From NCBI GenBank assembly GCA_029287645.1, contig JARFQS010000412.1, positions 1 through 13,502 of the forward strand: a DNA stretch of 13,502 nt, written 5' to 3'. The notes beneath the pieces are model-generated. The model saw nothing but the letters and a program-made list of their open reading frames with translations. It had not been told where the DNA came from and searched no databases. Positions 1-13,502 of this stretch are shown piece by piece; positions within the stretch are counted from its first letter, which is position 1; each line of letters opens with the position of its first letter. This DNA is from Thermoanaerobaculia bacterium. GTDB lineage: Bacteria; Acidobacteriota; Thermoanaerobaculia; Multivoradales; JAHEKO01. A program made the translations under genes and the position numbers.

Positions 1-1
1 C

Positions 2-118
2 GAAAAGATCCTGGATGGGAGCTTCGGTCCGGGGGACACGATCCAGGTCGATGTGAAGGGCGGCGAGCTCGTCTTCTCGGCAACTCGGGCGGAGACGGCC
101 GACGAAGTTCCTGCCTGA
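2..118 (+). CDS. clpB: ClpB-like AAA+ disaggregase, C-terminal end only
   Basis: Partial gene entering from the left edge; 38 residues and a TGA stop are visible. The fragment contains ILDGSFGPGDTIQVDV followed by GGELVFS, which resembles the extreme C-terminus of ClpB, where a small beta-rich D2 tail (G-E-F-x-P-G-D-T-I-x-V-D-V) follows the second ATPase domain. ClpB works with DnaK to resolubilise aggregated proteins in the cytoplasm. No catalytic motif lies in the visible part, so the call rests on the tail alone; another ClpA/ClpC-class ATPase is the main alternative. It ends 61 bases before egtD on the same strand, so read-through is possible. Confidence 0.68.
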   Translation, partial: EKILDGSFGPGDTIQVDVKGGELVFSATRAETADEVPA

Positions 119-179
119 TCAGGTGCTGGAGATCAGCCGATTCACAGTCGCTCTCGTCTGGTACCGTTGACGGCACTGT

Positions 180-1187
180 ATGACGATTATCTTCGAGAGC
201 GACTGCAATCGACTTCGGGTCTTCACGGCTCTGACGGGGCACGATGAGGATCCGGTGGCCGAGGAAGTGGGCGCCGGGCTGAAGGCGTCCAGCAAGACTC
301 TACCCAGCAAGTACTTCTATGACGCTCGCGGCTCCAAGCTCTTCGAGGAGATCTGCGAGCTGCCCGAGTACTACCAGACTCGAACCGAGCTCGCCCTGCT
401 GGAACGGTTCGGGCCCCAGATCATGGAGGGCTTCACCGGCGGCGATCTCATCGAGCTCGGCTCGGGTGCCAACCTGAAGATCCGGGCTCTCCTGGACGCC
501 GTCGATGCAGGGCAACGGCAGCAGCTTCGCTACGTTCCAGTGGACATCAGCGAGACGGCCCTGATCGAGGCGGCGGAGCATCTGCTGGAGCTCTATCCGG
601 ATCTCACCATCATGGGCCTGGTGACCGACTTCCATCATCCAATCGACCGGTTGGACCCTTCGAGAAGGAAGCTCTTCCTCTTCCTGGGCAGCACGATCGG
701 CAATCTGGACGAGGTTCAGGCGTCGGAGTTTCTCTCCAGGGTCACGGCCCTGATGGACGACGACGACCGATTTCTCCTGGGCCTGGACACCCTCAAGGAC
801 GTGGCGGTTCTGGAGAGCGCCTACAACGATGCGGCCGGCGTGACCGCGGAGTTCAACAAGAACATCTTGTCGGTGCTGAACGCGACCCTGGGGGCGGATT
901 TCGATGTGGACAGCTTCGAGCATCTCGCCTTCTTCAATCGCGACGAGGCGCAGATCGAGATGCGCCTCTCTGCCAGCCGCGAGATGCAGGTGGCGGTCCG
1001 GGATCTCGGACTGAGCTTCACCCTGGAAGAGGGCGAGACCATTCGCACCGAGATCTGTCGCAAGTTCGATCGCACCAGTGCCGAGGCCATGGTTCGCTCG
1101 GCGGGGCTGCATATCGCAGAGTGGTACACGGACAGTGACGAGGTGTTTGCGCTGGCTCTTCTGGAGAAGAGGAGCACAGCGAGTTGA
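180..1187 (+). CDS. egtD: L-histidine N-alpha-methyltransferase EgtD (hercynine synthase)
   Basis: Transfers three methyl groups from SAM to the alpha-amino group of histidine, giving hercynine (trimethylhistidine), the first step of ergothioneine synthesis; cytoplasmic. The 335 aa match the family length (about 320). Hallmarks seen: the N-terminal LPSKYFYDARGSKLFEEI region, LPEYYQTRTE (Y64-Y65), the SAM loop IELGSGANLK at 91-100, PVDIS around D122, GSTIGNLD with N175, and the C-terminal IRTEICRKF. From remembered Mycobacterium smegmatis EgtD numbering, a constant offset of 9 aligns Y65, N175, M261 and E291 with Y56, N166, M252 and E282; the usual Ser284 is Cys293 here. The ATG at 180 has no strong Shine-Dalgarno, so the start is likely but not certain. 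The stop overlaps the TTG start of the next gene, implying translational coupling with mes. Confidence 0.95.
   Translation: MTIIFESDCNRLRVFTALTGHDEDPVAEEVGAGLKASSKTLPSKYFYDARGSKLFEEICELPEYYQTRTELALLERFGPQIMEGFTGGDLIELGSGANLKIRALLDAVDAGQRQQLRYVPVDISETALIEAAEHLLELYPDLTIMGLVTDFHHPIDRLDPSRRKLFLFLGSTIGNLDEVQASEFLSRVTALMDDDDRFLLGLDTLKDVAVLESAYNDAAGVTAEFNKNILSVLNATLGADFDVDSFEHLAFFNRDEAQIEMRLSASREMQVAVRDLGLSFTLEEGETIRTEICRKFDRTSAEAMVRSAGLHIAEWYTDSDEVFALALLEKRSTAS
1168..1174 (+). promoter_or_regulatory. Ribosome binding site deciding the TTG start of mes
   Basis: AGAGGAG lies nine bases before the TTG at 1184, inside the last codons of egtD. The next in-frame ATG encodes residue 40 and would remove three of the four iron-sulfur cysteines (C9, C12, C16), so TTG at 1184 is the credible start. 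Confidence 0.7.
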
Positions 1188-4100
1188 TCCAAGAGAGGGA
1201 TGGCCTTTGCGGCATCTGCCCGGCGGGCTGCTGGGTGAGAGCCCAGATCGAGGACGGGCGACTCGTGCAGGTCGAGCCCCTGCCCGACCATCCTCTCGGC
1301 ATGATTTGCACGAACGGTGTTCACTCACCGGAGATCGTGCATGATCCGCAGCGCCTTCGGCACCCCCTGAAGCGGGTTGGCCCCAAGGGGACCTACGAGT
1401 TCGAGCCCATCTCGTGGGACGAAGCGATGGAGACCGTCGCGGAGCGGCTCCAGTCCATCAAAGCGGAGTCGGGACCGGAAGCCACTGCGATCTACACGGG
1501 GCGCGGCAGCTTCGAGCTCTCGTTGTGCGACATCTTCCAGCCGGCCGGTGTGGCGATCTCGTCGGCCTCGAGTGTCCTCTTCCCATTCGGCTCGCCCAAC
1601 ACCCTGGGTGTCGGTGCCCTCTGCTACGTCTCGTTCGCGATGATCGCGCCCCACACCACGATGGGCGAGATGTACCACACGATGGATTTCGACATCGACC
1701 AGGCTCAGCTCATCGTGGTCTGGGGAGCCAATCCGGCGACCGACTCACCGCCGTTGGCCCACGAGCAGATCAAGCAGGCTCGGGCCAGGGGCGCGGAGGT
1801 CGTCGTCATCGATCCCCGTCGAACCGAGACGGCCCGAGACACCGGCGCCGAGTGGGTGCCCATCCGTCCCGGCACCGACGGCGCGCTGGCACTCGGGTTG
1901 ATCAACGTTCTGGTCGAAGAAGAGCTCTACGACGAAGAGTTCGTGAGCCAGTGGACGATCGGGTGGGAGCCGCTGGTGGATTACATCCAACACTTCCGGC
2001 CGGAAGCGGTGGAGGAGATCACCGGGATTCCGGCGGGCAAGGTCGTGGAGCTCGCGAGGCGAATCGCCGGCGCTCGGGGAGCGTGTCCGGTCATGTACAC
2101 GGGACTCGAGTACGCGGACAGCGGGGTGCAGGCGATCCGCGCCGTCTTCACACTCTGGGGTGTGGCCGGCCAACTCGACGTACCTGGCGGGCTGCTGTTC
2201 CGGATGAAGGAGAACCGTTTCCCGATCAATCGGCAGGGGCTGGTCGAGAATCCGGACGTGCGCCAAGCGCTGGGCCGGGACCGTTTCCCCGTCTACAGCA
2301 TGTATCGCGGCGAATCCCACGCCATTGCTCTTCCGGATTCGATTCTGAAGGGCGAGCCCTACAAGATCCGTGCGCTGATGATCCTGGGCGGCTCGATCAT
2401 CACTGCGTGGCCGAACCCGACCATCTGGCGCGAAGCGCTGGGGGCGCTGGACTTCCTGGTGACCATTGATCGGCACTTCACCGCCGACGCAGCCTGGGCC
2501 GATATCGTCCTGCCGGCCACCACGGGCTACGAGATCAGCTCCTACATGACTTACGGACCCCTCTTCAAGCTCCGCGAAAGGCTCATCGATCCGGTCGGAG
2601 AGGCCCGGGACGACTTCCATATTCTCGCGGAGCTGGCGTCGCGACTCGGGTATGGAGACACGTATCCACAGAGCGATGAAGAGCGTTTGAGCCACGCTCT
2701 CGAAGGCTCCGGCTTCACCCTGGAAGAAGTCCGTGCCAATGACGGCGAGGTCCGTTGCCCCACGGTGATGACGCAGTACAAGAAGTGGGAGAGGGGGCTG
2801 CTGCGGCCGGACGGTCAGCCGGGCTTCGACACTCCGACAGGCAAGTTCGAGATCGCCTCGAGCATTCTCGAAGAGCATGGCTACGACGCGCTGCCCGTCT
2901 ACACCGAGCCGAAGGAGGGACCCCTGGCCCGACCCGATCTGGCGCAGCGCTATCCGCTGGTGTTTAATTCCGGGGCGCGCATCTTCGCCGATTTCAGGTC
3001 GCAGCATCACGGGGTTCCCGGTCTCCAGCGCAAGGCGCCCGAGCCCATGGTGACCCTGAATACCGAGGATGCCGAGGCGCGGGACATCTCCTTGGGCGAC
3101 TGGGTCTACCTGGAAACCTCCCGCGGGCGGCTGAAATACCGCGCCCAGGTCACGGACGACATCGTCCCGGGGGCTATCGAAGCGAACATGGGAGGTGGTG
3201 GGCCTCTGGGTACGGAGGCCTGGCGAGAGTGCAACGTGAACGACCTCACGGATCTGGCGAACTACGATCCGATCAGCGGCTTTCCGGTCTACAAGGCTCT
3301 CCTGTGTGAGGTCGTGAAAGCCGAAGGCGGCGGCGGTTCGAAACTCGAGCCGAGCGTCCAGGAGAGTGAGGCTGACGCCAGCGGAGGTGCCATCGAGCAG
3401 CAGCGCCCGACGAGACAGGTCTACCTGGACAACAACGCCACCTCGAACGTGCACCCGGAGGTGCTGGAAGCGATGCTGCCTTTCCTGCAGGAGCAGGGTG
3501 GCAACCCGTCCAGTGTTCACGGCCGGGGTACGGCAAGCCGAGACGCGGTCGAGAGCGCGCGGCGTAAGGTGGCTCAGGTCCTCAATTGCACCGCCAGGCG
3601 AGTCGTTTTCACCAGCGGTGGAAGCGAAGCGGACAATCTGGCCATCAAGGGGGTCGCCTTCGCATTCCAGGACAAGGGGAATCACATCATCACCTCTTCC
3701 ATCGAGCATCCGGCAGTGTTGAATGCGTGTCGGGGCCTGGAGGCCTTCGGGTTCGAGACCACCGTGCTCGAGGTGGACTCGGATGGCAGGGTCGATCGGC
3801 GACGGTTGGCGGAGGAGCTACGGCCCGAGACCCTTCTCGTCAGCGTGATGATGGCCAACAACGAGATCGGTACTCTGCAGCCGATCGCGGAGCTCGTATC
3901 GCTGGTGCACGAGCATGGTGCTCTCTTTCATACCGATGCGGTCCAGGCCCTCGGCAAGATTCCGATTGATGTGAGAGAGCTCGATGTAGATCTGCTGTCA
4001 CTCTCGGCACACAAGGCTCACGGTCCGAAAGGCGTGGGAGCTCTCTACGTCAAACAGGGCGTCAGCCTGTCTCCTCTCATCGATGGGGGCGGGCAGGAAC

Positions 4101-4576
4101 GAGAGCTGCGATCGGGCACCGAGAATGTTCCGGGCATCGTTGGCTTCGGCAGGGCCTGTGACCTGGCGGCACGATGGCTGAACCAGAGAGAGCCTGAACG
4201 AATTGCCGCATTGCGAGATCGGTTGGAGGCCGGGATCCGCGACCTGGTTCCCGGTGCCAGGCTCAACGGCCACGCAACGGAGCGCCTCCCCAACACGCTG
4301 AATCTCACCCTGCCCGAGATGCGCGGCGAGTCTCTGGTCCTCTTCCTCGATCGTCATGGGGTCTACTTCTCCTCCGGCTCCGCCTGCAAGTCGGGGAATC
4401 CGGCACCATCCCACGTCCTGTTGTCGATCGGTCTTACCGAGGAGGAGGCGCATTGCGCCGTGCGGCTGTCGCTCGGGGTGGACAATGACGAAGCGGACAT
4501 CGACTACGTTCTGGAGGCGTTGGGCGAGGTGATTCGGGAGAGCCAGAACAGTGTCCGATTCGTGTCGTGCCGTTAG
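1184..4576 (+). CDS. mes: Metallopterin-dependent ergothioneine synthase Mes (oxidoreductase-cysteine desulfurase fusion)
   Basis: A bifunctional protein of 1130 aa. Residues 1 to about 705 form a DMSO-reductase-family module: a [4Fe-4S] motif with C9, C12, C16 and C42, a probable metal ligand C147 in GALCYVSF, and a pterin-dinucleotide-binding C-terminal domain at about 590-700. A Gly/Ser/Glu-rich linker (about 708-743) joins a complete NifS/IscS-type domain: LDNNAT at 748-753, the PLP-stacking H842, PLP lysine K944 in SAHKAHGPKG, and persulfide cysteine C1068 in SSGSACKSG. In the Caldithrix abyssi Mes (known work of Beliaeva and Seebeck) the desulfurase moves cysteine sulfur to the metal centre, which attaches it to the imidazole of hercynine without O2. 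The same architecture beside egtD makes this role very likely here. The metal (Mo or W) cannot be told from sequence. The TTG start overlaps the egtD stop by four bases (TTGA). An unrelated fused molybdoenzyme is a remote alternative. Confidence 0.93.
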   Translation: MIQERDGLCGICPAGCWVRAQIEDGRLVQVEPLPDHPLGMICTNGVHSPEIVHDPQRLRHPLKRVGPKGTYEFEPISWDEAMETVAERLQSIKAESGPEATAIYTGRGSFELSLCDIFQPAGVAISSASSVLFPFGSPNTLGVGALCYVSFAMIAPHTTMGEMYHTMDFDIDQAQLIVVWGANPATDSPPLAHEQIKQARARGAEVVVIDPRRTETARDTGAEWVPIRPGTDGALALGLINVLVEEELYDEEFVSQWTIGWEPLVDYIQHFRPEAVEEITGIPAGKVVELARRIAGARGACPVMYTGLEYADSGVQAIRAVFTLWGVAGQLDVPGGLLFRMKENRFPINRQGLVENPDVRQALGRDRFPVYSMYRGESHAIALPDSILKGEPYKIRALMILGGSIITAWPNPTIWREALGALDFLVTIDRHFTADAAWADIVLPATTGYEISSYMTYGPLFKLRERLIDPVGEARDDFHILAELASRLGYGDTYPQSDEERLSHALEGSGFTLEEVRANDGEVRCPTVMTQYKKWERGLLRPDGQPGFDTPTGKFEIASSILEEHGYDALPVYTEPKEGPLARPDLAQRYPLVFNSGARIFADFRSQHHGVPGLQRKAPEPMVTLNTEDAEARDISLGDWVYLETSRGRLKYRAQVTDDIVPGAIEANMGGGGPLGTEAWRECNVNDLTDLANYDPISGFPVYKALLCEVVKAEGGGGSKLEPSVQESEADASGGAIEQQRPTRQVYLDNNATSNVHPEVLEAMLPFLQEQGGNPSSVHGRGTASRDAVESARRKVAQVLNCTARRVVFTSGGSEADNLAIKGVAFAFQDKGNHIITSSIEHPAVLNACRGLEAFGFETTVLEVDSDGRVDRRRLAEELRPETLLVSVMMANNEIGTLQPIAELVSLVHEHGALFHTDAVQALGKIPIDVRELDVDLLSLSAHKAHGPKGVGALYVKQGVSLSPLIDGGGQERELRSGTENVPGIVGFGRACDLAARWLNQREPERIAALRDRLEAGIRDLVPGARLNGHATERLPNTLNLTLPEMRGESLVLFLDRHGVYFSSGSACKSGNPAPSHVLLSIGLTEEEAHCAVRLSLGVDNDEADIDYVLEALGEVIRESQNSVRFVSCR

Positions 4577-4694
4577 CCGTGGTTTCCCTACAGACGTGGA
4601 GCTCGGGCCCTGGGTAGCTCGGGGTAGGGGCAGTCCGAAGGTCGAGCCGGGCCGTAGAGTTGGAAAGAAAGAACGGGCCACTCGGCCCCGAGAC

Positions 4695-4701
4695 GAGGTG
4701 A
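4695..4701 (+). promoter_or_regulatory. Shine-Dalgarno supporting a CTG start for the DUF5996 gene
   Basis: GAGGTGA closely matches the anti-Shine-Dalgarno complement and lies four bases before the CTG at 4706 (seven bases from the end of GAGG). No ATG, GTG or TTG exists in frame between the upstream stop (4655) and the ATG at 4787. Confidence 0.6.
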
Positions 4702-4705
4702 CGAC

Positions 4706-5536
4706 CTGAGTAGAGCCGATTTTCCGAGCCTGACTCTGTCCGAGTGGCAGGGAACCCGAGACACGCTTCAGGGGTACTGCCGGCTGATGAGCGCGATCCG
4801 CCGCGAGTCGAGCCCGCGGCAGCGCCACTGGTCTCATGTCTCACTTCGTGTCGTCCCGGAAGGTCTCATCACGACGCCGATTCCTTCGCGCAGCGGCACC
4901 TTCGGCCTGCGGCTCGACCTGGTGCATGACAAGCTGCGGATTCTGACGAGTGGCGGTCAGAGCCTGGAGCTTCCCGTCGAGGGTCAATCCCTGGCGCAGT
5001 TCCACTCGGAAGTCATGGCAGCCTTGAGAGGGCTGGAAGTGGCCTCAGAGGTCGAGGCCGAGGCGTTCTCTGATAGGTCGTCCGGTGAGTGGGATTCGGC
5101 GGCGATCGGACGGTATAGGCAAGCGCTCGTTCAGATCGATGCCGTCCTCAAGGCATTCAAGGGAGAGCAACGCCAGGAGACCTCGCCGGTACAGCTCTTT
5201 CCCCACCACTTCGATCTGGCCTTGACCTGGTTCTCGGGCCGACAGGTGCCCGGTCAGGAAGCGAAGGACGAGGAGCGGTCGGACGAGCAGATGACGTTCG
5301 GCTTCGCTACCGGAGACGAGACCGTTGCACAGCCCTACTTCTACGCCACCGCCTATCCGGAGCCTGAAGGATTCGTCGGTTCTCCGCTACCGGAAGGGGC
5401 CTATTGGAACGAGGCCGGCTTCTCAGGAGCCGTACTGCCATACGCAGCGCTCGAACAAGTGGACGAACCGCGGCAGCTTCTCGCGGAATTCCTCCGGCGG
5501 GCACACGAAGCCGGTGCGTCGAGAATGACGGGCTGA
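4706..5536 (+). CDS. DUF5996 family protein, probable CTG start
   Basis: Unknown function; 276 aa if read from CTG 4706. The family is recognised from the opening FPSLTLSEWQGTRDTLQGY, the block HWSHVSLRVVPEGLITTPIP, then RLDLVHDKLRILTSGG, the central YRQALVQIDAVLKAFK, FPHHFDLALTWFSGR, and the C-terminal YFYATAYPEPEGF. No signal peptide or membrane segment, so probably cytoplasmic. Starting at the only ATG (4787) would discard about 27 conserved residues including EWQ-TRDTL, whereas the CTG has a very good ribosome binding site. The gene lies 130 bases after mes on the same strand with no convincing terminator between, so it may share the ergothioneine transcript; any functional link is inference. 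No catalytic motif is obvious. Confidence 0.85.
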   Translation: MSRADFPSLTLSEWQGTRDTLQGYCRLMSAIRRESSPRQRHWSHVSLRVVPEGLITTPIPSRSGTFGLRLDLVHDKLRILTSGGQSLELPVEGQSLAQFHSEVMAALRGLEVASEVEAEAFSDRSSGEWDSAAIGRYRQALVQIDAVLKAFKGEQRQETSPVQLFPHHFDLALTWFSGRQVPGQEAKDEERSDEQMTFGFATGDETVAQPYFYATAYPEPEGFVGSPLPEGAYWNEAGFSGAVLPYAALEQVDEPRQLLAEFLRRAHEAGASRMTG

Positions 5537-5558
5537 CTCGCACTGCGGCGTCAGAACG

Positions 5559-5750
5559 TCAGGCAGCAATCGAGGAGTCGGTCTGAGCTGGATTCTCGAG
5601 ATCCAGCCCATAGAACACTCTCTCGAAAGGAGCCAGCCGGCGCCTGGCACCTTCTGGATTCCCGCACTCGCGGCATACGGCGAGCGTGCACTTGTGAGGA
5701 ATCGAGAAGGGGCGGCGGGTGTAGCAGATCCAGCAGAAAAGTCTCAGCAT
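5559..5750 (-). CDS. Possible small zinc-binding protein (63 aa)
   Basis: A short frame of 63 aa that I do not recognise. It carries a CWIC pair (residues 6-9) and a later cluster KCTLAVCREC (residues 20-29), giving C-x2-C ... C-x5-C-x2-C spacing as in small zinc ribbons, followed by a basic stretch and an acidic tail. AGGA lies just upstream of the ATG but the spacing (about two bases) is short. It is convergent with the DUF5996 gene and shares the strand of the metal-uptake genes, whose permease stop lies 260 bases upstream. A chance frame in GC-rich DNA cannot be excluded; the paired cysteines are the main argument for it. Confidence 0.35.
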   Translation of the reverse strand: MLRLFCWICYTRRPFSIPHKCTLAVCRECGNPEGARRRLAPFERVFYGLDLENPAQTDSSIAA

Positions 5751-6010
5751 ATTCCTATCCGGGGACCAAGGACTGCAAGCGAGATGCCACAGCGCCCTCC
5801 GGCGCACTCGAGATCTCAAGTCACTGGAATTATTGAATTTGGGGCGACAGCTGCCAGACGATCTGACGCCGAGCAGGGAAGAATTGCCCGGTCGCCAGGC
5901 AAGCGGCTCGGAAGAAAATCCTCGATGCGCCCCAGCCCGTTCTCGAGGTGCTGCTGTCCGCAGCGCTCTCGATCTCCGCTTGCGAGTCCTCGGAGGGCTC
6001 TAGGTCGGAG
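5751..6010. other. Intergenic region downstream of the permease gene
   Basis: No convincing gene is seen on either strand. A small inverted repeat (GCGCC, loop CTCC, GGCGC, at 5792-5805) is flanked by a further GAGAT/ATCTC pair (5781-5785 and 5813-5817) and could mark the end of the leftward transcript. It lacks a T-run, so it is not a classical intrinsic terminator. Confidence 0.4.
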
Positions 6011-7441
6011 TCAGGGAGTTCCTGCCCAGGCCCGTATTCGCTCGATGGCCTGGGCATTGTCCTCTTCACTCCCGAAAGCGTCATAGCCGAAGTCCTGGCC
6101 GGCCTCCTCCGCGATGAGTTGGTAGGACTCGTCGCGGACCAGAGGCGGCGACGCGGGCGAGAGCAGCTCGATCGCAGTCTTCAGGCCTCGTGGATCACCC
6201 CGGCTAGCCAGCAGTTGGGCGGCTTCGAGTCTCACGAGGGGCTCTACCTCTGCCGCTGCCAACTCGACGATGAGGTCGGCGCTCTCTTCGGATTCGACCG
6301 TGGCGAGCACTTCGAGCCAGTTCTCGCGCTCCGAGGTATCGGCCTCGCCGATGCGGTGGCTCAGGAGCTCCCGACTACCGGGAGTCTCCATGATTCGTTC
6401 CGCGATGCACGGAGCCTGGCCTCCGCACTCGGTCGAGAGCTCCCCCCACAGGGAGTCGTGAACGTGAGCATGACCCGCTTCGTCCTCATGCTCGGCTTCC
6501 CAGTCGTGCTCGTGCGCGATCTGCAGGAACGTGCTGCTGGAAAAGAATACGCTCAGACCCGCGAGCACCAAGACGACGGCGGTGATTCCAGCAGCCGCTT
6601 TTACGGTGGCTCCGACCCGACTCGGCGCAGCGAGAATCGAGTAGATGAGACCTGCCAGCAGCAGAGCGCCCCCCAGCGAGGCCACGACCGAGGGACCGGA
6701 GGGCAGGTCGAAACGGTAGGAGGCGACCAGCCCGAGCGCGCAGGCGACCAGCCCGACGCTCCATCCAATCACCAGCCTGGTGCTGATCCGCTCCGCAAAA
6801 AGTGAGGCGATGACCGCGGGGATGACCAGGAACGAGAAGACGAGCAGCACCCCGGCGATAGCCACAGACGAAGTGATCACAAAGGCGAAGGTGACGTAGA
6901 AGATGAAATCCCACAACCGGACCTTTAGACCCTCGGCATAGGCCTGCTCGGGATGAAACGAAATGGCGAAGAACTGCCGGCGAAGCGCGACGTGGAGAAG
7001 CCCTACCAGGGCATAGATTCCGGCTGTCTTGATGATGGTTGGCCACCGTACCCAGAGCAGCGTTCCGGTGAGGGTCTCCTTGATGTGCTCCGAGCCCTCA
7101 GGAGCGCGATCGGCGACCAGAATGGCCAGTGCCAGAGCCACAGCGTAGGTGATGCCGATGATCGCTTCCTGCGGTATTCGCTCATGCCGCATCCGGGTGA
7201 CCGCGAAGATGCCGGCGCCGATGATGGCGAAGGCGAGAGAAAAGACGTAGGCGGTCTGACTGTGCGGGCTCAAGCCCAACAAGAACCCGAACGTCGCTCC
7301 GAGTGCGGCGATCTGCGCCAGAGCCAGGTCCACGAAGATGACTTTTCTCTGGATGACATGCAGGCCGAGATAGGCATGGATGCCCACCAGGACCACGCAC
7401 GCCGCGAACGGCGCCGCCATCAACGCGGTCAGCTCTCTCAT
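6011..7441 (-). CDS. ZnuB/MntB-type metal ABC permease with His-rich and HEAT-like extension
   Basis: Inner-membrane permease of the ABC-3 family (Zn/Mn/Fe uptake). Residues 1 to about 300 contain eight or nine hydrophobic segments, with the family signature VDLALAQIAALGATFG near 37-52, FHPEQAYAEGL at 162-172 and a late DLPSGPSVV at 246-253. Family members are usually 260-300 aa; this one has 476. After the last membrane segment comes a His/Asp/Glu-rich stretch at about 310-329 (six His in 20 residues), two cysteines (C339, C345), then a helical region at about 372-445 with HEAT-like repeats (PLVRLEAAQLLASRGDPRGL, then PPLVRDESYQLI). The extension may bind metal or regulate transport; this is inference. 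The start follows the metal-binding protein gene by four bases and its ribosome binding site (GAAGGA) overlaps that gene's stop, so the two are coupled. No ATPase gene follows. Confidence 0.9.
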   Translation of the reverse strand: MRELTALMAAPFAACVVLVGIHAYLGLHVIQRKVIFVDLALAQIAALGATFGFLLGLSPHSQTAYVFSLAFAIIGAGIFAVTRMRHERIPQEAIIGITYAVALALAILVADRAPEGSEHIKETLTGTLLWVRWPTIIKTAGIYALVGLLHVALRRQFFAISFHPEQAYAEGLKVRLWDFIFYVTFAFVITSSVAIAGVLLVFSFLVIPAVIASLFAERISTRLVIGWSVGLVACALGLVASYRFDLPSGPSVVASLGGALLLAGLIYSILAAPSRVGATVKAAAGITAVVLVLAGLSVFFSSSTFLQIAHEHDWEAEHEDEAGHAHVHDSLWGELSTECGGQAPCIAERIMETPGSRELLSHRIGEADTSERENWLEVLATVESEESADLIVELAAAEVEPLVRLEAAQLLASRGDPRGLKTAIELLSPASPPLVRDESYQLIAEEAGQDFGYDAFGSEEDNAQAIERIRAWAGTP

Positions 7442-7445
7442 GCGA

Positions 7446-8546
7446 CTATCCTTCCGTCGCCTCGAAGGCTGCTAGAAGCCGCCCGATCCATGCGTCCACG
7501 AGCTCCTCGTACCCATCGATCCCGGCTTCACCCTCCGAGTAGAGAGGCACGGTCACCACGGTGGCGCCCGTTCGGTTGGCGATCGCCTTCGGCTTCTCCG
7601 GATTGAAGTAGTTGGCGGAGAGGATCACTTCGATCCCCTGGTCGCGGATCAGATCCATGATGGTCTCCACGTGACGCGGGGTCGGAGGAATGCCCGGTTT
7701 GGGCTCCACGTAGCCGACCATATCGAGTTCGAATCGGTGGGTGAAGTAGATCCAGTTCTTGTGGTAGCCGATCAACTGGTGTCCGCGGATGGGCTCGACC
7801 TGTTTCAGCCAACCGGCCAGCCGGTCGGCCAGGGTCGAACCGCTCCCGGCGGGGTATTCCTTTCCTTCCAGAAAAGTGCGCAGCTTGCCGGCCAGAGCGA
7901 GTCGGGCCAGGGTGTCACCACCTAGGAGGTCGACGAGCTCATCACCGAAAAGACGCCGATGAAGACGGTCCTCGAGGGCGGCTTCCCGTTCGCGGTAGTA
8001 CTCGGTGTTGGCGGGGTCGATCTTCTCCAGCCCCGCCAGAATATTGCGGGCTATGATGATCATGTTCAGCGGATCGGTGTGGATGTGGGGGTTGCCGTAC
8101 ACGTGGACATCACCCTCGGAACGGCTCAGGGTGGTTGGCTTGTCCAGTAGCTCTATGCCGGTCCAGGCAGCCACGTATCCGGGCGCCCCTTCGAGAATAT
8201 TGCGATTCCCGGCAGCATCGAGAAGCGTCGGAGCCCACAGCTCCAGGTCCAGGCCGGTCGAGATGAACATGTCCGCTGTTCGGAGTTTGGTTTGAAAGGA
8301 GGGTTTGGGCCGGACGAAGTGGGCATCCTGGTCACCGCGGCAGATGGCTTCGGCCTCTACGCGGTCACCACCAATCTCCCGTACAACCCAGGCGTAGTCG
8401 GGAATCGTGGCCACGACCTGGAGAGGAGAACCGGGAGAAGCGGGTGTCGATTGAGCCTGTAGAGGGGCTGCAAGTGCACAGCAAACCGCCCCAAGAGCGA
8501 TGAGTGTGGACAACAGAATCGGACTGGAGGTGCGTGTCGGTTTCAT
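7446..8546 (-). CDS. ZnuA/TroA-like metal ABC transporter substrate-binding protein
   Basis: Periplasmic cluster A-I metal-binding protein of 366 aa delivering Zn or Mn to the permease encoded next. A signal peptide occupies about residues 1-32 (hydrophobic core followed by LQAQS). Likely metal ligands by family position are H76 (QDAHFVRPKPSF), H154 or H156 (GNPHIHTDP, the DPHxWLDP box) and H262 (GYHKNWIYF). The C-terminal YVEPKPGIPPTP and RTGATVVTVPL segments are typical. The acidic His-rich loop common in zinc-specific ZnuA is nearly absent, only DVHVY near 146-150, so Zn versus Mn cannot be decided. The frame runs upstream into the porin gene; ATG 8546 is chosen because GGGAG precedes it at proper spacing and it starts a good signal peptide. 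It lies 16 bases after the porin stop. Confidence 0.9.
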   Translation of the reverse strand: MKPTRTSSPILLSTLIALGAVCCALAAPLQAQSTPASPGSPLQVVATIPDYAWVVREIGGDRVEAEAICRGDQDAHFVRPKPSFQTKLRTADMFISTGLDLELWAPTLLDAAGNRNILEGAPGYVAAWTGIELLDKPTTLSRSEGDVHVYGNPHIHTDPLNMIIIARNILAGLEKIDPANTEYYREREAALEDRLHRRLFGDELVDLLGGDTLARLALAGKLRTFLEGKEYPAGSGSTLADRLAGWLKQVEPIRGHQLIGYHKNWIYFTHRFELDMVGYVEPKPGIPPTPRHVETIMDLIRDQGIEVILSANYFNPEKPKAIANRTGATVVTVPLYSEGEAGIDGYEELVDAWIGRLLAAFEATEG

Positions 8547-8562
8547 GATCGCTCCCTGTCCA

Positions 8563-10041
8563 TCAGTAGTTTTCGTGTTTGTGCGGTCCGGCCGCGAAGG
8601 TGACCTGGAGCCAAAGCCGGTTGTCTGTTTTCGGGCCCCGGGGTGAGATGAAATCGCGATCGATTCGCTGGTACTGCAGACGGAGTCGTACGAACTCACT
8701 CTGCCAGTAGGTCAGGAATGGGGTCCAGCCGGTGTCCTTCAGGCCCTCGCGGAACTCCTCTGGATCGTGGATCCCGTGCGCATAGCCAGGCAGCTCTGCA
8801 TTGTCGTAGCGCAGTCCGACGATCCATCGACGGCTCAGCCGGCCGAATAAATAGGCATAGTACGAGTCCGAAGCGATCGAGGGTGCGTCCGCCGTGTCGA
8901 AATCGGTGTGGATGTACTCCCCGCGAAACTCCAGGCTGCGATAGCGGGCCCGGTTGGTCGGTTCCCAGACGTAGGCGAAGTCGAAACCGTAGATATCGGT
9001 CTTCGTGCTTCCCGTTTCCGAGTTGGGTCCGCGAGTCCAGTTCAAGCCGAGGTCGAAATAGGCGTCGGGCCCCAGGTCGAAGAACCCGGTGTGGCGCAGG
9101 AGAAAGGCCGGATCATTCCAGTCGGCGCCAGCGAATGCCACTGGATTGTCGGCGTTGGTGATCTCCAGGGTCAGTCCGTTGTTGGTCGCCCAGAGCTTGC
9201 CCAGCTGCCAGTCCAGTCCGATTCCGAGACCCGTGAGCCCTTCGTGACCGAAGGCGTGCTCGAGAGCGAAGGGTGTGTCGACACTGGGGAGGGCGTGGCG
9301 GTGCCAGCGGTTGAGCGTGCCGTACTGCTGTCGGAATTTGCCGACATAGAGCCTCGTGTGCAGGGGCAGAGCCACCCATTCCATGTAGGCCTCCTCGACG
9401 TTGACTCCGATCTCGCCGCCATGTGCGTGCTCGTCTTCGTGCTCCTCCTCCTCGTCGTGTTCCTCCCCTTCGTGCTCATGGTCGTCGAGGGGGAAGGTGT
9501 AGGGCTCCTGGTGGCCGGCCAGGGTCGCCTTGAATCGTGTATAGGGATCGAGAGGCGCCTGTAGCGCGATCTCGGCGCCCCGCAACACGAAGCCGTCCTT
9601 GATGTCGCTCTCGGACCAGTCGTAGGAGACATCTCCAACGAAGCTGATCTCGGGATTCAGTGCCTGCTGGGTGCGCTCACGTCCGACGAAGGTGTCGCGT
9701 TGCGCGGCCGCCTCTTCCTCTTTGAGCTTTTCGTCGGCAGTCAGCTCCTCCGCCTCCGCGAGCAGCGCTTCCAGCTCGTCATCCTGTTTCTGCTTCTGTG
9801 ACTCCGCGACCTGGCCCTTGAGCTCGTTGAGCTGCTCCTGGAGCTCGCGGATCTGGCGCTGGTAGCTCTCTTCGAGCTCCTCGAGCCGTTGCTCGAGTCG
9901 TCGAATGTCCTCGGCGGGATCGTCGCCGACCTCCTGGGTCTCTTCGGACTGGGCGTTGGCAGGCGGTACCCCCAAGGGCAAAGCCAGAATCACCAGGATC
10001 AGAATCCAGTATCTTCTGTGACGTCCTACGGGTATTTCCAC
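8563..10041 (-). CDS. Coiled-coil outer-membrane porin with His/Glu-rich loop, probable metal channel
   Basis: Predicted outer-membrane beta-barrel of 492 aa. From GTG 10041 there is a signal peptide (1-30, ending ANAQS), a long charged coiled coil (about 38-115, heptads rich in E, L, Q, K), and then alternating amphipathic strands up to the C-terminal aromatic HENY, as in OprP-like phosphate-selective porins whose N-terminal coiled coil trimerises in the periplasm. A loop at about 187-207 holds seven His among many Glu/Asp, likely a surface metal-attracting segment. Placement directly before the metal-binding protein and permease supports a role in bringing Zn or a similar ion across the outer membrane; this is inference. 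An upstream in-frame ATG (10131) would put 30 polar residues before the signal peptide and lies within the hairpin at 10103-10135, so GTG with AGGAGA seven bases ahead is preferred. Confidence 0.85.
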   Translation of the reverse strand: MEIPVGRHRRYWILILVILALPLGVPPANAQSEETQEVGDDPAEDIRRLEQRLEELEESYQRQIRELQEQLNELKGQVAESQKQKQDDELEALLAEAEELTADEKLKEEEAAAQRDTFVGRERTQQALNPEISFVGDVSYDWSESDIKDGFVLRGAEIALQAPLDPYTRFKATLAGHQEPYTFPLDDHEHEGEEHDEEEEHEDEHAHGGEIGVNVEEAYMEWVALPLHTRLYVGKFRQQYGTLNRWHRHALPSVDTPFALEHAFGHEGLTGLGIGLDWQLGKLWATNNGLTLEITNADNPVAFAGADWNDPAFLLRHTGFFDLGPDAYFDLGLNWTRGPNSETGSTKTDIYGFDFAYVWEPTNRARYRSLEFRGEYIHTDFDTADAPSIASDSYYAYLFGRLSRRWIVGLRYDNAELPGYAHGIHDPEEFREGLKDTGWTPFLTYWQSEFVRLRLQYQRIDRDFISPRGPKTDNRLWLQVTFAAGPHKHENY

Positions 10042-10048
10042 GGCAGTT

Positions 10049-10054
10049 TCTCCT
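10049..10054 (-). promoter_or_regulatory. Ribosome binding site deciding the GTG start of the porin gene
   Basis: AGGAGA on the minus strand lies seven bases before GTG 10041. That start gives an immediate, well-formed signal peptide. Confidence 0.75.
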
Positions 10055-10102
10055 GATCGTTGACGCTGTGAGCAGATGGGTCGGTCAACAGTACGACCAA
10101 CC

Positions 10103-10135
10103 GGCCTTGCCCACTCGATCGAGCGTGGCAAGGCC
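10103..10135 (-). promoter_or_regulatory. Strong 33-base hairpin in the leader of the porin gene
   Basis: On the minus strand GGCCTTGCC and GGCAAGGCC form a perfect nine-base-pair stem. Inside it, after a single bulged A, five more pairs (one G-U) close on a GATC tetraloop. No T-run follows on either strand, so a classical terminator is unlikely. It lies between the small CxxC gene and the porin gene and could stabilise or punctuate the transcript. Confidence 0.65.
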
Positions 10136-10149
10136 TGCTGAATGTGGCG

Positions 10150-10506
10150 TCAGGACCTGGGAGGACCGCGAGGGTCTGCGTACCGTAGAGGGGGTGTCGA
10201 GACCAGCCTCTCCGAAGTCGCTTCGACCTCGGCCTGCAGACTGGGCTGCGGCGGGTCTTCCGCACCCTGGGTACTGGCATGGGTCAGGATGCGCTGCAGA
10301 ACACAGGCTGCGCATTCGAGCAGATCGGCGTCCGTGGCGGGCACCAGAGAGGTGTTTCCGCTGGCTGTCCGAGAGATGAGAGTGTCGCTGTCGTCGGAGC
10401 TCTCGAGGGGGGCAGTGTGCCAGTGGGGAAGCCCGCTGGCGGCAATGACGATCGCCAGGACCAGAAGGGCCGTCAGCTGATGGATTCCTTTGCGCCCTCT
10501 AGTCAT
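10150..10506 (-). CDS. Small exported or membrane-anchored CxxC protein, first gene of the metal operon
   Basis: Hypothetical protein of 118 aa from ATG 10506; a TTG four codons upstream is possible. Residues 8-25 are hydrophobic (signal peptide or single membrane anchor), followed by a His-containing LPHWHTAP segment, a Ser/Asp/Thr-rich stretch and an ECAACVLQ motif with C65 and C68. This pattern of hydrophobic start, HxH near the membrane, then a CxxC-L motif recalls DUF2946-like small proteins found beside metal transport genes; I cannot confirm family membership. It is read leftwards, with 108 bases including a hairpin before the porin gene. A periplasmic metal-binding or metallochaperone role is possible but inferred from motif and context only. 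Confidence 0.7.
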   Translation of the reverse strand: MTRGRKGIHQLTALLVLAIVIAASGLPHWHTAPLESSDDSDTLISRTASGNTSLVPATDADLLECAACVLQRILTHASTQGAEDPPQPSLQAEVEATSERLVSTPPLRYADPRGPPRS

Positions 10507-10553
10507 GTTGTAGCTCAATCAACGCGGCCCGGGTCTGGATCGACCTTAGCGAG

Positions 10554-10562
10554 ATTGTAGCA
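10554..10562 (-). promoter_or_regulatory. Candidate extended -10 promoter for the leftward metal operon
   Basis: The minus strand reads TGCTACAAT, an extended -10 (TG-n-TACAAT) about 48 bases before ATG 10506. No good -35 is visible; the 10573-10597 inverted repeat covers that place, which would suit repression by an operator. Confidence 0.4.
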
Positions 10563-10572
10563 GGGGAGTGGC

Positions 10573-10597
10573 TCCAGAGAGTGTGAAGCTCTCTGGA
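10573..10597. promoter_or_regulatory. Perfect inverted repeat, candidate operator for the metal operon
   Basis: TCCAGAGAG and CTCTCTGGA form a nine-base perfect inverted repeat with a seven-base spacer. It lies immediately upstream of the extended -10 of the leftward operon and 60 bases before the GntR start. With no T-run on either strand it is not a terminator. A metal-responsive regulator is a reasonable guess for the binder; no consensus I know matches exactly. Confidence 0.5.
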
Positions 10598-10613
10598 ACC
10601 GGCGGTTGAAATC

Positions 10614-10630
10614 TGATATATTAGATATCA
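10614..10630. promoter_or_regulatory. TGATAT-N5-ATATCA palindrome, candidate operator of the GntR regulator
   Basis: A perfect six-base inverted repeat with a five-base spacer, in an AT-rich island that stands out from the GC-rich surroundings, 27 bases before the GntR start codon. A possible -10 (TATATT, 10617-10622) lies inside it. Autoregulation by the adjacent FadR-type regulator is a typical arrangement. Confidence 0.55.
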
Positions 10631-10657
10631 AAAGACACAATCAAGACGAGAATCCCC

Positions 10658-11356
10658 ATGGCTGACAACGGCATCTTGCAGCTCCGCTCCCTACGGGAAC
10701 AGGTGTACGAGTACCTTCGTGATGCCATCAACCGCGGCGAGCTGGACGCCGGCTCGTTCCTGGATCAAAAGCAGCTGTCGGAGAATCTGGGCATCAGCAA
10801 GACTCCGTTGAGGGATGCCCTGATTCAACTCGAGACCGAGGGATTCGTCTCGATCCTCCCCAGGCGAGGTGTGGTCGTGAATCGACTCACGCTCGAAGAC
10901 GTCCGGAACCTCTACGAGATCATCGGCGCTCTGGAGGGCGCAGCGGTCATTTCGGTAGGCGATCTCTTGGAGGAGGCCCACTATCGACAGATGCGGGCTC
11001 TCAACTCGGAGATGGTGGCGGCCGTGGAGGCGGGAAACTTCAACCGCTACTACGCTCGAAATCTCGCATTTCACGAGGTCTTTCTGGGCCTGACCCGGAA
11101 CAACAGTCTGCGTCGGATGGTGGAGAACGCCAAGCACCGGCTGTACGACTTTCCACGGCGCAGAGAGTTCGTGCCCGAGTGGGAGCTGGCTTCGACGGAA
11201 GAACACGCCGCGTTCCTGGACCTTCTGGAGAGTGGAGATGTGCGGGTGGCGGCCGACTATCTGCGGGATGTCCATTGGTCATTCGCGGTGCAGCAGCGGT
11301 TTATTCTCCAGTACTACTTCCCAGACGCCGAGCTTCTCAAAGCGGAGGGGGCCTGA
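10658..11356 (+). CDS. GntR family transcriptional regulator, FadR/FCD subfamily
   Basis: DNA-binding regulator of 232 aa. Residues 8 to about 75 form the winged helix-turn-helix (LREQVYEYLRDAI, LDQKQLSENLGISKTPLRDA, then the wing ILPRRGVVVNRL). Residues 80-220 form the all-helical FCD ligand domain, with N135, H139 (NLAFHEVF), H183 (EEHAAF) and H206 (DVHWSF) at the usual metal-binding positions, suggesting a carboxylate ligand held through a metal ion. The gene starts the activase/glycyl-radical-enzyme operon, with a three-base gap to the next gene, so it most likely controls that operon in response to its substrate. If the enzyme is hydroxyproline dehydratase, the ligand may be hydroxyproline or a product; that is inference. 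Confidence 0.92.
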   Translation: MADNGILQLRSLREQVYEYLRDAINRGELDAGSFLDQKQLSENLGISKTPLRDALIQLETEGFVSILPRRGVVVNRLTLEDVRNLYEIIGALEGAAVISVGDLLEEAHYRQMRALNSEMVAAVEAGNFNRYYARNLAFHEVFLGLTRNNSLRRMVENAKHRLYDFPRRREFVPEWELASTEEHAAFLDLLESGDVRVAADYLRDVHWSFAVQQRFILQYYFPDAELLKAEGA

Positions 11357-11359
11357 GAC

Positions 11360-12265
11360 GTGGTTCGGGGAGAGGTGTTCAACGTCCAGCGCTTCTCGGT
11401 TCACGACGGCCCCGGGATCCGTACGGCGGTCTTTCTCAAGGGCTGCCCACTGGCTTGCGTGTGGTGCCACAACCCGGAGGGGATTTCCCCTCGTCCAGAG
11501 ATCCTGATGACACCCAGCCGGTGTGTCGGCTGCGGTGAGTGCGTCTCGGTGTGTCCGAGGGACCTGCCGGTTCCTCTGCGATCGCCGAGTCTCGAAGATG
11601 CCGAGCACTGCCTCCTGTGTGGAGCCTGTGCGGACGCTTGCCCAACCGAGGCGCGACAGATGGCGGGCCACTCGATGAGCGTCGAGGAGGTCGTCGAGGT
11701 TGTTCTGAAGGACCGGATCTTCTACGACGAATCCGGGGGAGGGGTGACCTTCTCGGGCGGCGAGCCCTTGCGTCAGGCGGGGTTTCTACGCTCTGCCCTC
11801 GAAGCCTGCAAGCACGAGAGGATCCACACCGCGGTGGACACCTGCGGCCTGGTCGGGCAGGAGGACCTGCTCTCCGTGGCCGACTTCACGGATCTGTTTC
11901 TCTTCGATGTGAAGATGATGGACGACGACAAGCACCGCCGCTACACCGGGGTTTCGAACCGCCAGATCCTGCTCAACCTCGAAGCTCTGGGGCGAAGGGA
12001 GCGGCGGATCTGGATGCGAGTACCGGTCATTCCGGGCGTCAACGACAATTCCGAGAACCTGGAGGCCACTGCCAGGTTGGCGGCCTCGATCCCCTCGGTC
12101 GAGCGAGTCTGCCTGCTGCCCTACCACCCGCTGGGTGAGAGCAAGTCGAGGCGCTTGGACAGGGATGCGAGCCTTCCGGACCTGGGGGCTCCCACCCCCG
12201 GCAAGATGCAAGCACTGGTCGAGCTGGTGGAAGCGGAGGGCATTGCCGCCAGCATCGGAGGATAG
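11360..12265 (+). CDS. Glycyl-radical enzyme activating protein (radical SAM)
   Basis: Radical SAM activase of 301 aa that abstracts a hydrogen from the conserved glycine of its partner, using SAM and a [4Fe-4S] cluster. The SAM-cluster motif is C29-x3-C33-x2-C36 in GCPLACVWCHNPEG. A ferredoxin-like insert carries two further clusters: C55, C58, C61, C65 and C84, C87, C90, C94. This insert is found in activases of the CutD, HypE, BssD and glycerol dehydratase type and not in pyruvate formate-lyase activase. GGGVTFSGGEP and the DTCG segment follow in the expected order. GTG 11360 is preferred; it begins just before the conserved FNVQRFSVHDGPGIRT block. It sits three bases after the regulator and six before the enzyme, so all three are one operon. 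Confidence 0.96.
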   Translation: MVRGEVFNVQRFSVHDGPGIRTAVFLKGCPLACVWCHNPEGISPRPEILMTPSRCVGCGECVSVCPRDLPVPLRSPSLEDAEHCLLCGACADACPTEARQMAGHSMSVEEVVEVVLKDRIFYDESGGGVTFSGGEPLRQAGFLRSALEACKHERIHTAVDTCGLVGQEDLLSVADFTDLFLFDVKMMDDDKHRRYTGVSNRQILLNLEALGRRERRIWMRVPVIPGVNDNSENLEATARLAASIPSVERVCLLPYHPLGESKSRRLDRDASLPDLGAPTPGKMQALVELVEAEGIAASIGG

Positions 12266-12271
12266 AGAGAC

Positions 12272-13502
12272 ATGAATGAACGAACACGACGACTTCGACA
12301 AGAGAGCTTGGATCTGTTGCCCTCCATCTCCAGCGAGCGCGCCGAGCTGCTGACCGACTTCTATCAGGAGCATCTGGGTCGGCACTCGGTCCCGGTGCTC
12401 CGGGCCATGTCCTTCCGCCATCTGTGCGAGAACAAGACCCTGTATCTGGGCGAGGAGGAGCTCATCGTGGGTGAGCGGGGGCCTCGACCGAAGGCGGTCC
12501 CGACTTATCCGGAGCTGACCTGCCACAGCCTGGAGGATCTCAGAATCCTCGACTCGAGACCGAAGACCGCCTATCAGGTGCCAGAGCGGTGCCTGGAGGC
12601 CTATCAGAGCAAGGTGATTCCCTACTGGAAGGGTCGCTCGCTGCGGGATCGTATCTTCGCAGACCTCCCCGAAGCCTGGCACGAGGCCTACGAGGCGGGC
12701 ATCTACACCGAGTTCATGGAGCAGCGGGCTCCCGGCCATACCGTCCTCGACGACAAGATCTACTCGAAGGGCATGCTGGATTTCAAAGCGGACATCGCCG
12801 AGTCGCTGGCCGGCCTGGATTTCGAGGAGGACCCTGCCGCCCAGGAGAAGCGTGAGGCCCTTCGGGCCATGGATATCGCCTGTGACGCGGTAATCCTCTT
12901 CGCCGAGCGTCATGCCGAGCTGGCGGAGGATCGGGCCGCGGTGGAGGAGGACCCGAAGCGGCGGGCCGAGCTCGAGAAGATAGGTGAGGTCTGCCGGCAC
13001 GTTCCTGCCAGAGCGCCACGGGATTTCCACGAAGCGCTCCAGTACTACTGGTTCTGCCACCTGGCTGTGATCACGGAGCTCAACGGGTGGGACGCGTTCA
13101 ATCCAGGACACCTGGACCAGCATCTCCTTCCCTTCTTCGAGAAGGGCCTGGCGGATGGAAGCCTGACTCGAGAGACGGCAAGAGAGCTCCTCGAGGCCTT
13201 CTTCGTCAAGTTCAACAACCACCCGGCACCGCCCAAGGTTGGCGTCACCGCAGCCGAGAGCGGCACCTACACCGACTTCGCCAACATCAACATCGGCGGA
13301 CTCCTGCTGGATGGCTCGGACGGCTCGAACGAGATCTCCCACATCCTTCTGGACATCGTGGACGAGATGCATCTCCTGCAGCCCAGCACCAACGTCCAGG
13401 TGTCACGCAAGACTCCCGACGCCCTCCTCGACCACACATTGCGGGTGGTTCGCAAAGGGTATGGCTTTCCCTCCATCTTCAACGCCGACACGGTCGTGGA
13501 GG
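12272..13502 (+). CDS. hypD: Glycyl radical enzyme, probable trans-4-hydroxy-L-proline dehydratase, 5' part
   Basis: The first 410 codons of a glycyl radical enzyme cut by the right edge; family members have about 790-800 aa, so the active-site cysteine and the C-terminal glycine loop are outside. Similarity to the hydroxyproline dehydratase of Clostridioides difficile, as I remember it, runs along the whole visible part: LRAMSFRHLCENKTL, EELIVGERG, TEFMEQRAPGHTV, GWDAFNPGHLDQH, KFNNHPAPPKVGVT, TYTDFANIN, QPSTNVQ. With an offset of four, F148, H156, D274, S330 and F336 match F152, H160, D278, S334 and F340 reported for that enzyme's pocket. It dehydrates hydroxyproline to pyrroline-5-carboxylate, which ProC reduces to proline. 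The adjacent activase fits. A sister clade with another substrate (an uncharacterised dehydratase or lyase) remains possible until the second half is read. Confidence 0.8.
   Translation, partial: MNERTRRLRQESLDLLPSISSERAELLTDFYQEHLGRHSVPVLRAMSFRHLCENKTLYLGEEELIVGERGPRPKAVPTYPELTCHSLEDLRILDSRPKTAYQVPERCLEAYQSKVIPYWKGRSLRDRIFADLPEAWHEAYEAGIYTEFMEQRAPGHTVLDDKIYSKGMLDFKADIAESLAGLDFEEDPAAQEKREALRAMDIACDAVILFAERHAELAEDRAAVEEDPKRRAELEKIGEVCRHVPARAPRDFHEALQYYWFCHLAVITELNGWDAFNPGHLDQHLLPFFEKGLADGSLTRETARELLEAFFVKFNNHPAPPKVGVTAAESGTYTDFANINIGGLLLDGSDGSNEISHILLDIVDEMHLLQPSTNVQVSRKTPDALLDHTLRVVRKGYGFPSIFNADTVVE

Follow-up and report, generated by a model that had tools for sequence, protein, structure and literature searches.

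A predicted egtD-mes ergothioneine operon of the metallopterin type in a Thermoanaerobaculia genome that also encodes a cytochrome oxidase

The window analyzed here is a stretch of 13,502 nucleotides (positions 1-13502 of host contig C48, GenBank JARFQS010000412.1) from the genome of a Thermoanaerobaculia bacterium of the phylum Acidobacteriota, assembled as 3.13 Mb in 638 contigs, 70.45% complete and with an estimated contamination of 0.85%. Judging from gene order, domain content, and conserved residues, we find that the window very probably carries an overlapping two-gene ergothioneine operon of the known metallopterin type: egtD, for a histidine N-alpha-methyltransferase, followed by mes, for a metallopterin-dependent ergothioneine synthase (MES). 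The operon itself is not new; its MES is one more member of a pathway published in 2022. The host, however, encodes an A2-type cytochrome oxidase, whereas MES has been called exclusive to anaerobes.

The egtD-mes gene pair

Both open reading frames lie on the + strand, head to tail: egtD at 180-1187 (335 aa) and mes at 1184-4576 (1130 aa). They have in common the four bases TTGA (1184-1187), made up of the putative TTG start of mes and the TGA stop of egtD. The initial annotation, which described an egtD overlapping a molybdopterin/cysteine-desulfurase fusion by four bases, is thereby confirmed, and the overlap is kept in the two nearest relatives, which come from Acidobacteriota metagenome genomes (L002, with a MES 90% identical to that of the window, and L003, 86%). 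By eye, a ribosome-site-like AGAGGAG (1168-1174, + strand) ends nine bases before the TTG, which we infer to be the start codon of mes. Two near-identical database proteins (P0002 and P0003) speak against this start: they have 1113 residues (98% coverage), which fits a start at V18. However, such a start would lose C9, C12, and C16, although these are kept in all 41 loci and in 114 of the 119 database proteins compared, two sets of overlapping kin that are not independent.

The product of egtD scores 356.4 bits against the NCBIfam equivalog TIGR03438, exceeding its cut-off of 290.9 bits, and gives a 356-bit match to PF10017, the sole match to that domain in the host genome. M. smegmatis EgtD (PDB 4PIM, 4UY5) belongs to the same equivalog family. 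Out of nine of its positions that we take to be the histidine- and trimethylammonium-binding residues, eight are kept in the window protein: Y39, F47, Y56, G161, N166, Y206, M252, and E282.

MES is a fusion of a molybdopterin module (residues 1-715; 1184-3328, + strand) and a cysteine desulfurase module (residues 741-1130; 3404-4573, + strand), joined by a linker (residues 716-740; 3329-3403, + strand). The fusion matches PF00384, PF01568, and, over the desulfurase module, PF00266 (279.5 bits), with PF04879 just below its cut-off (22.6 vs. 22.7 bits). Among solved structures, those nearest to it in sequence are of cysteine desulfurases (372.6 bits) and, matching the N-terminal part, of the acetylene hydratase 2E7Z (255.9 bits; 258.6 bits for the molybdopterin module). 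An AlphaFold2 model of the fusion, built from 54 sequences, has a predicted local distance difference test score (pLDDT) of 86.2 and a predicted template-modeling score (pTM) of 0.82; searched with Foldseek, it finds acetylene hydratase first (template-modeling score, TM, of 0.83 on the target) and the human desulfurase Nfs1 second. Acetylene hydratase thus has the fold of the N-terminal module, and its Fe4S4 and metal-ligand cysteines align with those of MES, but it is only 25% identical, comes without a desulfurase module, and has D13, presumably its catalytic residue, where MES has P13 (at least 90% conserved in alignment A1). The C-terminal module belongs to the family and fold of the NifS/IscS cysteine desulfurases (with target TM values of roughly 0.9 or higher), although its 503.3 bits against the NifS equivalog fall below the cut-off of 530.75, and MES adds an extra C-terminal relay cysteine.

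The reaction has been demonstrated for the MES of Caldithrix abyssi (CaMES; PMC9516567), which has the same architecture, a length of 1136 residues with its C-terminal module running to the last, and a co-encoded EgtD; it is one of four tested MES enzymes, next to AbMES, EaMES, and hvMES. According to that paper, CaMES has Fe4S4 cysteines at 14, 17, 21, and 48, the metal ligand C153, and the pyridoxal phosphate (PLP) lysine K952; ergothioneine synthesis needs K952, C1074, C1135, and C153, with C1074 and C1135 essential and C1097 having a two-fold effect. Compared by these published positions and their spacing, and not by a sequence alignment with CaMES, all nine residues have counterparts in the window protein: the Fe4S4 cysteines C9, C12, C16, and C42; the putative Mo/W ligand C147 (codon 1622-1624, matching C153); the PLP lysine K944 (4013-4015, matching K952); the desulfurase persulfide cysteine C1068 (4385-4387, matching C1074); C1091; and the relay cysteine C1129 (4568-4570, matching C1135), which is the last but one residue. 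The last three cysteines are displaced by a constant offset of 6, and the spacing from C1068 to the end is identical, so that all three stand at the same distance from the C terminus as in CaMES.

These residues are also well kept among relatives. C147 is present in every row of the 41 loci and 119 database proteins, and K944, C1068, and C1129 are kept wherever a row has letters (in all 119 proteins and in 38, 37, and 36 of the 41 loci, respectively; a contig end or stop truncates the other rows); C1091 is replaced by G in one locus and two proteins. A further cysteine, C115 (1526-1528, + strand), is found in 161 out of 161 fusion rows and in one of the 12 stand-alone relatives described below, five of which have K instead; we found no mention of it in the available part of PMC9516567. 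Only four stretches of the model have a pLDDT below 50, namely the metal-ligand loop (144-147), linker residues 722-740, the persulfide loop (1067-1071), and the tail (1122-1130). A predicted disordered tail ending in C1129 fits a swinging persulfide carrier.

By analogy, the window proteins would carry out the chemistry of CaMES, with the tail as the carrier. EgtD would methylate histidine three times with S-adenosylmethionine to give trimethylhistidine (TMH). The desulfurase module of MES, with PLP on K944, would draw sulfur from cysteine onto C1068, which would pass the persulfide to C1129 on the mobile C-terminal tail; the C1129 persulfide would then load a Mo or W center ligated by C147, giving a metal sulfide that would place sulfur on C2 of the TMH imidazole. 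The metal-sulfide step is, in the available part of PMC9516567, a proposal for CaMES as well. The EgtB and EanB routes reach the same product through the same EgtD step, but EgtB is O2-dependent and EanB is a rhodanese-like enzyme that uses polysulfide (PMC9516567). Architecture, functional residues, and the partnership with EgtD together support the initial assignment to this third, metallopterin route. Two MoCF_biosynth matches are found in the host genome.

Distribution of MES and its partnership with EgtD

At a cut-off of E 1e-180, which misses diverged or badly cut copies, we collected 42 MES genomes: six out of 297 in the sample of the window's phylum (the host included), 15 from an initial homologue scan, nine more from a Gemmatimonadota sample (total 11 of 346), and 12 more from a Desulfobacterota sample (total 13 of 345). 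They share ancestry and are not independent. A contig end truncates mes in four of them (G280, G308, G309, and G311); in G311 the break falls ahead of the desulfurase module, and the fusion is assumed there. Eleven further genomes, one of the window's phylum sample and ten of the Desulfobacterota sample, have the stand-alone module only. PF10017, the EgtD domain, occurs in 38 of the 42 MES genomes vs. none of the 11 stand-alone-only genomes, and egtD itself lies within the fetched flank (of unequal length) of 28 of the 42 MES genes.

The initial annotation valued the window as a further lineage of a pathway with few characterized examples. The pathway is not rare, since all 120 listed MES homologues (one being the window's own protein) have both Pfam modules and cover at least 97% of the fusion (coverage 97-100%, identity 66-100%); the MES-bearing lineage here is one of very many. 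Geobacter sp. SVR, for example, has a full-length MES relative (P0109). No plasmid or viral carriage of MES was seen: 1784 plasmid records match some part of MES with none covering 80%, and in the viral search 14 stretches matched a pattern with none confirmed. In the tree, the N-terminal module of the window falls into one clade with all 38 fusion rows, a clade that also takes in five stand-alone rows whose place there is tentative. On a Gemmatimonadota chromosome, that of L004, a second egtD-mes locus is visible (L017:4864-6963), masked in its middle; the 15-kb L004 stretch shows no egtD. In the literature searched, PMC9516567 is the sole paper with MES as its subject: in their available parts, the review PMC10903977 repeats its findings, and PMC12771579 mentions an ergothioneine breakdown enzyme and not MES.

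Several observations weigh against reading the window pair as an ergothioneine operon. The ninth substrate residue of M. smegmatis EgtD, S284, is C293 in the window protein, a change also seen in L002, L003, L084, and L135-L137. The alternative synthase EgtB (TIGR03440) exceeds its cut-off in none of 22 genomes searched, of which 21 have MES, but sub-threshold matches occur in 13 of the 22, that of the window included; its absence from the host is weak evidence, because the genome is incomplete, and EanB was not searched for. The host also has an oxidase, while MES has been reported from anaerobes only, a matter taken up in the next section.

Two other functions for the pair can be weighed against the same data. 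The fusion might thiolate another heterocycle, its place behind egtD being incidental: four of the 42 MES genomes gave no EgtD (G280, G308, G309, and G637), the fetched flank lacks egtD for 14 of the 42 MES genes, and stand-alone relatives are present in genomes without EgtD. We consider this very unlikely, given that the coding overlap with egtD is kept in the two nearest relatives, that EgtD is found in the great majority of MES genomes, and that the fusion keeps the CaMES residues; moreover, the cut mes genes of G280, G308, and G309 mean that those assemblies are broken there, whereas G637 has a whole mes in an assembly of 2.1 Mb. Alternatively, the metallopterin half-reaction being reversible, the operon might degrade ergothioneine or swap its sulfur, as is suggested by the K952A variant of CaMES, with which sulfur moves from ergothioneine to TMH in E. 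coli cells (PMC9516567, available part). However, EgtD is a methyltransferase of biosynthesis, and its pairing with a desulfurase that retains the catalytic residues points to synthesis; we regard either of these roles as extremely improbable.

The two genes do not appear to have traveled together throughout. We compared trees of the MES and EgtD proteins from the same 28 loci, those with egtD in the flank. In the MES tree, the window clade (window, L002, and L003) groups with the Gemmatimonadota rows, L007, L009, and L015 (100/97). In the EgtD tree, it groups instead with ten Desulfobacterota-sample rows and Methanoculleus (100/99), whereas the Gemmatimonadota rows, L007, L009, and L015 form a separate set (100/100). 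Constraining the EgtDs to the MES-tree grouping is rejected (approximately unbiased test, p-AU 0.0047), as is the reverse constraint on MES (p-AU 9.6e-48), these values being optimistic in that the groups were named after the trees had been seen. This conflict suggests that one partner has been exchanged, probably the methyltransferase gene. The S284-to-C change is common to the EgtD of the window clade and L135-L137.

Oxygen and the host

The abstract of the discovery paper calls MES exclusive to anaerobes (PMC9516567), and this is where the host of the window differs. On host contig C33 (7,979 bases), the genome encodes a PF00115 protein (468 bits) with the motif YSHPAVY, which we take to mark A2-type oxidases, in a cluster (L090:5489-7979) of cytochrome oxidase subunit I and, by eye, apparent subunit III and IV genes. 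The L002 and L003 genomes encode counterparts of the subunit I protein (COX1) that are 92.4% and 91.8% identical to it.

Oxidases of this kind are not peculiar to the host. PF00115 proteins with the motif H-P-x-V-Y, which we take to be that of O2 reductases, occur in 19 of the 42 MES genomes (G000, G176, G279, G297, G298, G299, G301, G308, G331, G361, G415, G469, G508, G529, G535, G624, G637, G967, and G985), among them every one of the 11 from the Gemmatimonadota sample. Other PF00115 proteins were kept apart from this count: G303 and G309 have motifs of the nitric oxide reductase (NOR) type only; G702, G789, and G979 have further proteins outside the motif classes, G979 together with a NOR-type one; and G300, G302, G304, and G827 have fragments or weak matches that were left unclassed. 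Among the 23 MES genomes that lack an HPxVY oxidase, seven have full-length cytochrome bd (>500 bits), but this was not counted as oxidase evidence, cytochrome bd being found in many anaerobes. We do not take MES to indicate an aerobic host: of the 297 genomes sampled from the window's phylum, 248 have PF00115, vs. three of the six MES genomes, so MES may lean towards oxidase-poor genomes, although six are few.

It might be argued that the oxidase contig has been misbinned and that the host is an anaerobe, which would affect the reading of the host and not that of the pathway. The assembly is fragmented and incomplete, and the oxidase stands on a small contig of its own. The close match of the host COX1 to those of the L002 and L003 genomes, however, parallels the 90% and 86% identity of their MES, the estimated contamination is low, and a single contig carries both MES and an oxidase of this motif in each of five Gemmatimonadota-sample genomes (G299, G301, G469, G508, and G624), so the combination is real. 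Misbinning is thus quite unlikely. Since oxidases with the O2-reductase motif accompany MES in 19 of 42 genomes, MES is, as far as gene content tells, not confined to anaerobes, and the published exclusivity fails for the genomes examined here. An O2-independent route does not imply an anaerobic host. In the available methods of PMC9516567, moreover, E. coli cultures expressing MES were shaken and then kept for 20 h in tubes. Anaerobic handling is not mentioned there, so strict anoxia in the cell may not be a requirement of MES.

The far end of the window adds to this picture. A GntR regulator (10658-11356) precedes genes for a glycyl-radical-enzyme activase and a trans-4-hydroxyproline-dehydratase-like glycyl radical enzyme (11360-13502), the second of which runs off the window end (594.8 bits over positions 1-408 of 784). 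Glycyl radical enzymes are inactivated by O2. Because a cytochrome oxidase and a glycyl radical enzyme are encoded in one genome, the host would appear to be facultative, keeping an O2-independent ergothioneine route.

The remaining genes lie between. A DUF5996 protein is encoded at 4706-5536 (+ strand), where by eye there is an in-frame CTG at 4706; its nearest relatives mostly have 276 residues, 27 more than would be read from the first ATG in the window, and since the 27 extra residues begin in frame at this CTG, an unusual start is possible. On the - strand, 6011-8699 encode a metal-type ATP-binding cassette (ABC) substrate-binding protein and a permease whose end weakly matches a HEAT repeat (26.6 vs. 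27.7 bits); no ABC ATPase was found among the nine window proteins run through Pfam. Upstream of the ABC genes lies a 522-residue protein (8563-10131) without Pfam or NCBIfam match. The DUF5996 and metal-type ABC genes were considered and rejected as parts of the pathway, as among L002-L017 they stand beside egtD-mes only in L002 and L003.

Stand-alone relatives and a candidate ovothiol route

The 11 stand-alone-only genomes contain 12 loci whose proteins, of 699-741 residues, are 41-53% identical to the window module, and all 12 keep the four Fe4S4 cysteines and C147. The stand-alone enzyme is also carried by Desulfosarcina ovata (P0359) and Desulfobacula phenolica (P0338). Five of the 12 form one clade (100/100); their genomes belong to the Desulfobacterota sample and gave no EgtD, and each of the five stands behind a same-strand methyltransferase gene of one family, 9-26 bases upstream, that resembles OvoM or the C-terminal part of OvoA (L217:4049-7225, L218:8591-11772, L219:8023-11198, L220:7023-10208, and L221:2490-5673). 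The other genes around these five loci are not common to them, except between L220 and L221. The seven other modules (L088 and L152-L157) lie outside the fusion clade, likewise in genomes in which no EgtD was found.

The methyltransferases suggest what the five enzymes may do. Two of the five, run through Pfam, show a methyltransferase domain and a Trm112p-like N terminus (below cut-off in one). The best NCBIfam match of all five is TIGR04345, "putative 4-mercaptohistidine N1-methyltransferase" (88.7-113.2 bits). One of them, compared with the PDB, has OvsM (9bxh), OvoA (8khq), and OvoM (9bxl) as its best three matches, and out of ten plasmid matches listed for another, five are annotated as ovoA. 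We take these best matches (the OvoA C terminus, OvsM, and OvoM) to be 5-thiohistidine and 5-selenohistidine N-methyltransferases. The molybdenum enzymes of the five-locus clade differ from MES at a set of positions, among them three near the metal-ligand cysteine in sequence: C115 is K, L146 is P, and H157 is K.

Tentatively, then, MES may be one branch of a wider family of histidine-thiolating molybdopterin enzymes, with a sister branch that serves an O2-independent ovothiol route, a proposal to which we give somewhat less than an even chance. In this route, the molybdenum enzyme would convert histidine to 5-thiohistidine, taking sulfur from a hypothetical separate donor, after which the methyltransferase would complete ovothiol. 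In the known synthesis of ovothiol, OvoA and OvoB act together with the methyltransferase domain of OvoA, and species from both aerobic and anaerobic environments have OvoA homologues (PMC12631010, available part). A molybdenum-dependent or O2-independent ovothiol route was not found in the literature searched, which covered part of the matching papers. Three points tell against the proposal: all five methyltransferases miss the TIGR04345 cut-off of 170 and are family-like, not counted as OvoM/OvoC members; no OvoM-like neighbor was seen in the stretches of L088 and L152-L157, some of which are short; and attack at C5 instead of C2 of histidine is putative.

A first tree nests the five OvoM-linked enzymes inside the fusions, but the data do not reject a constraint that keeps all fusions in one group (p-AU 0.242), so the idea that the five are MES proteins that have lost a domain is not upheld. 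A tree without the seven outer rows is unrooted and therefore cannot decide the descent of the five.

The egtD-mes pair thus represents an O2-independent route kept by lineages able in principle to use EgtB, and the role of ergothioneine without O2 becomes testable in organisms that possibly live with and without O2. For O2-independent ovothiol synthesis, the sister branch is a concrete candidate that can be tested cheaply. If the proposal is true, then, taken with oxidase-bearing MES hosts such as that of the window, it would make thiohistidine synthesis by molybdenum enzymes a trait widespread in anoxic and micro-oxic life, and not one of strict anaerobes only.

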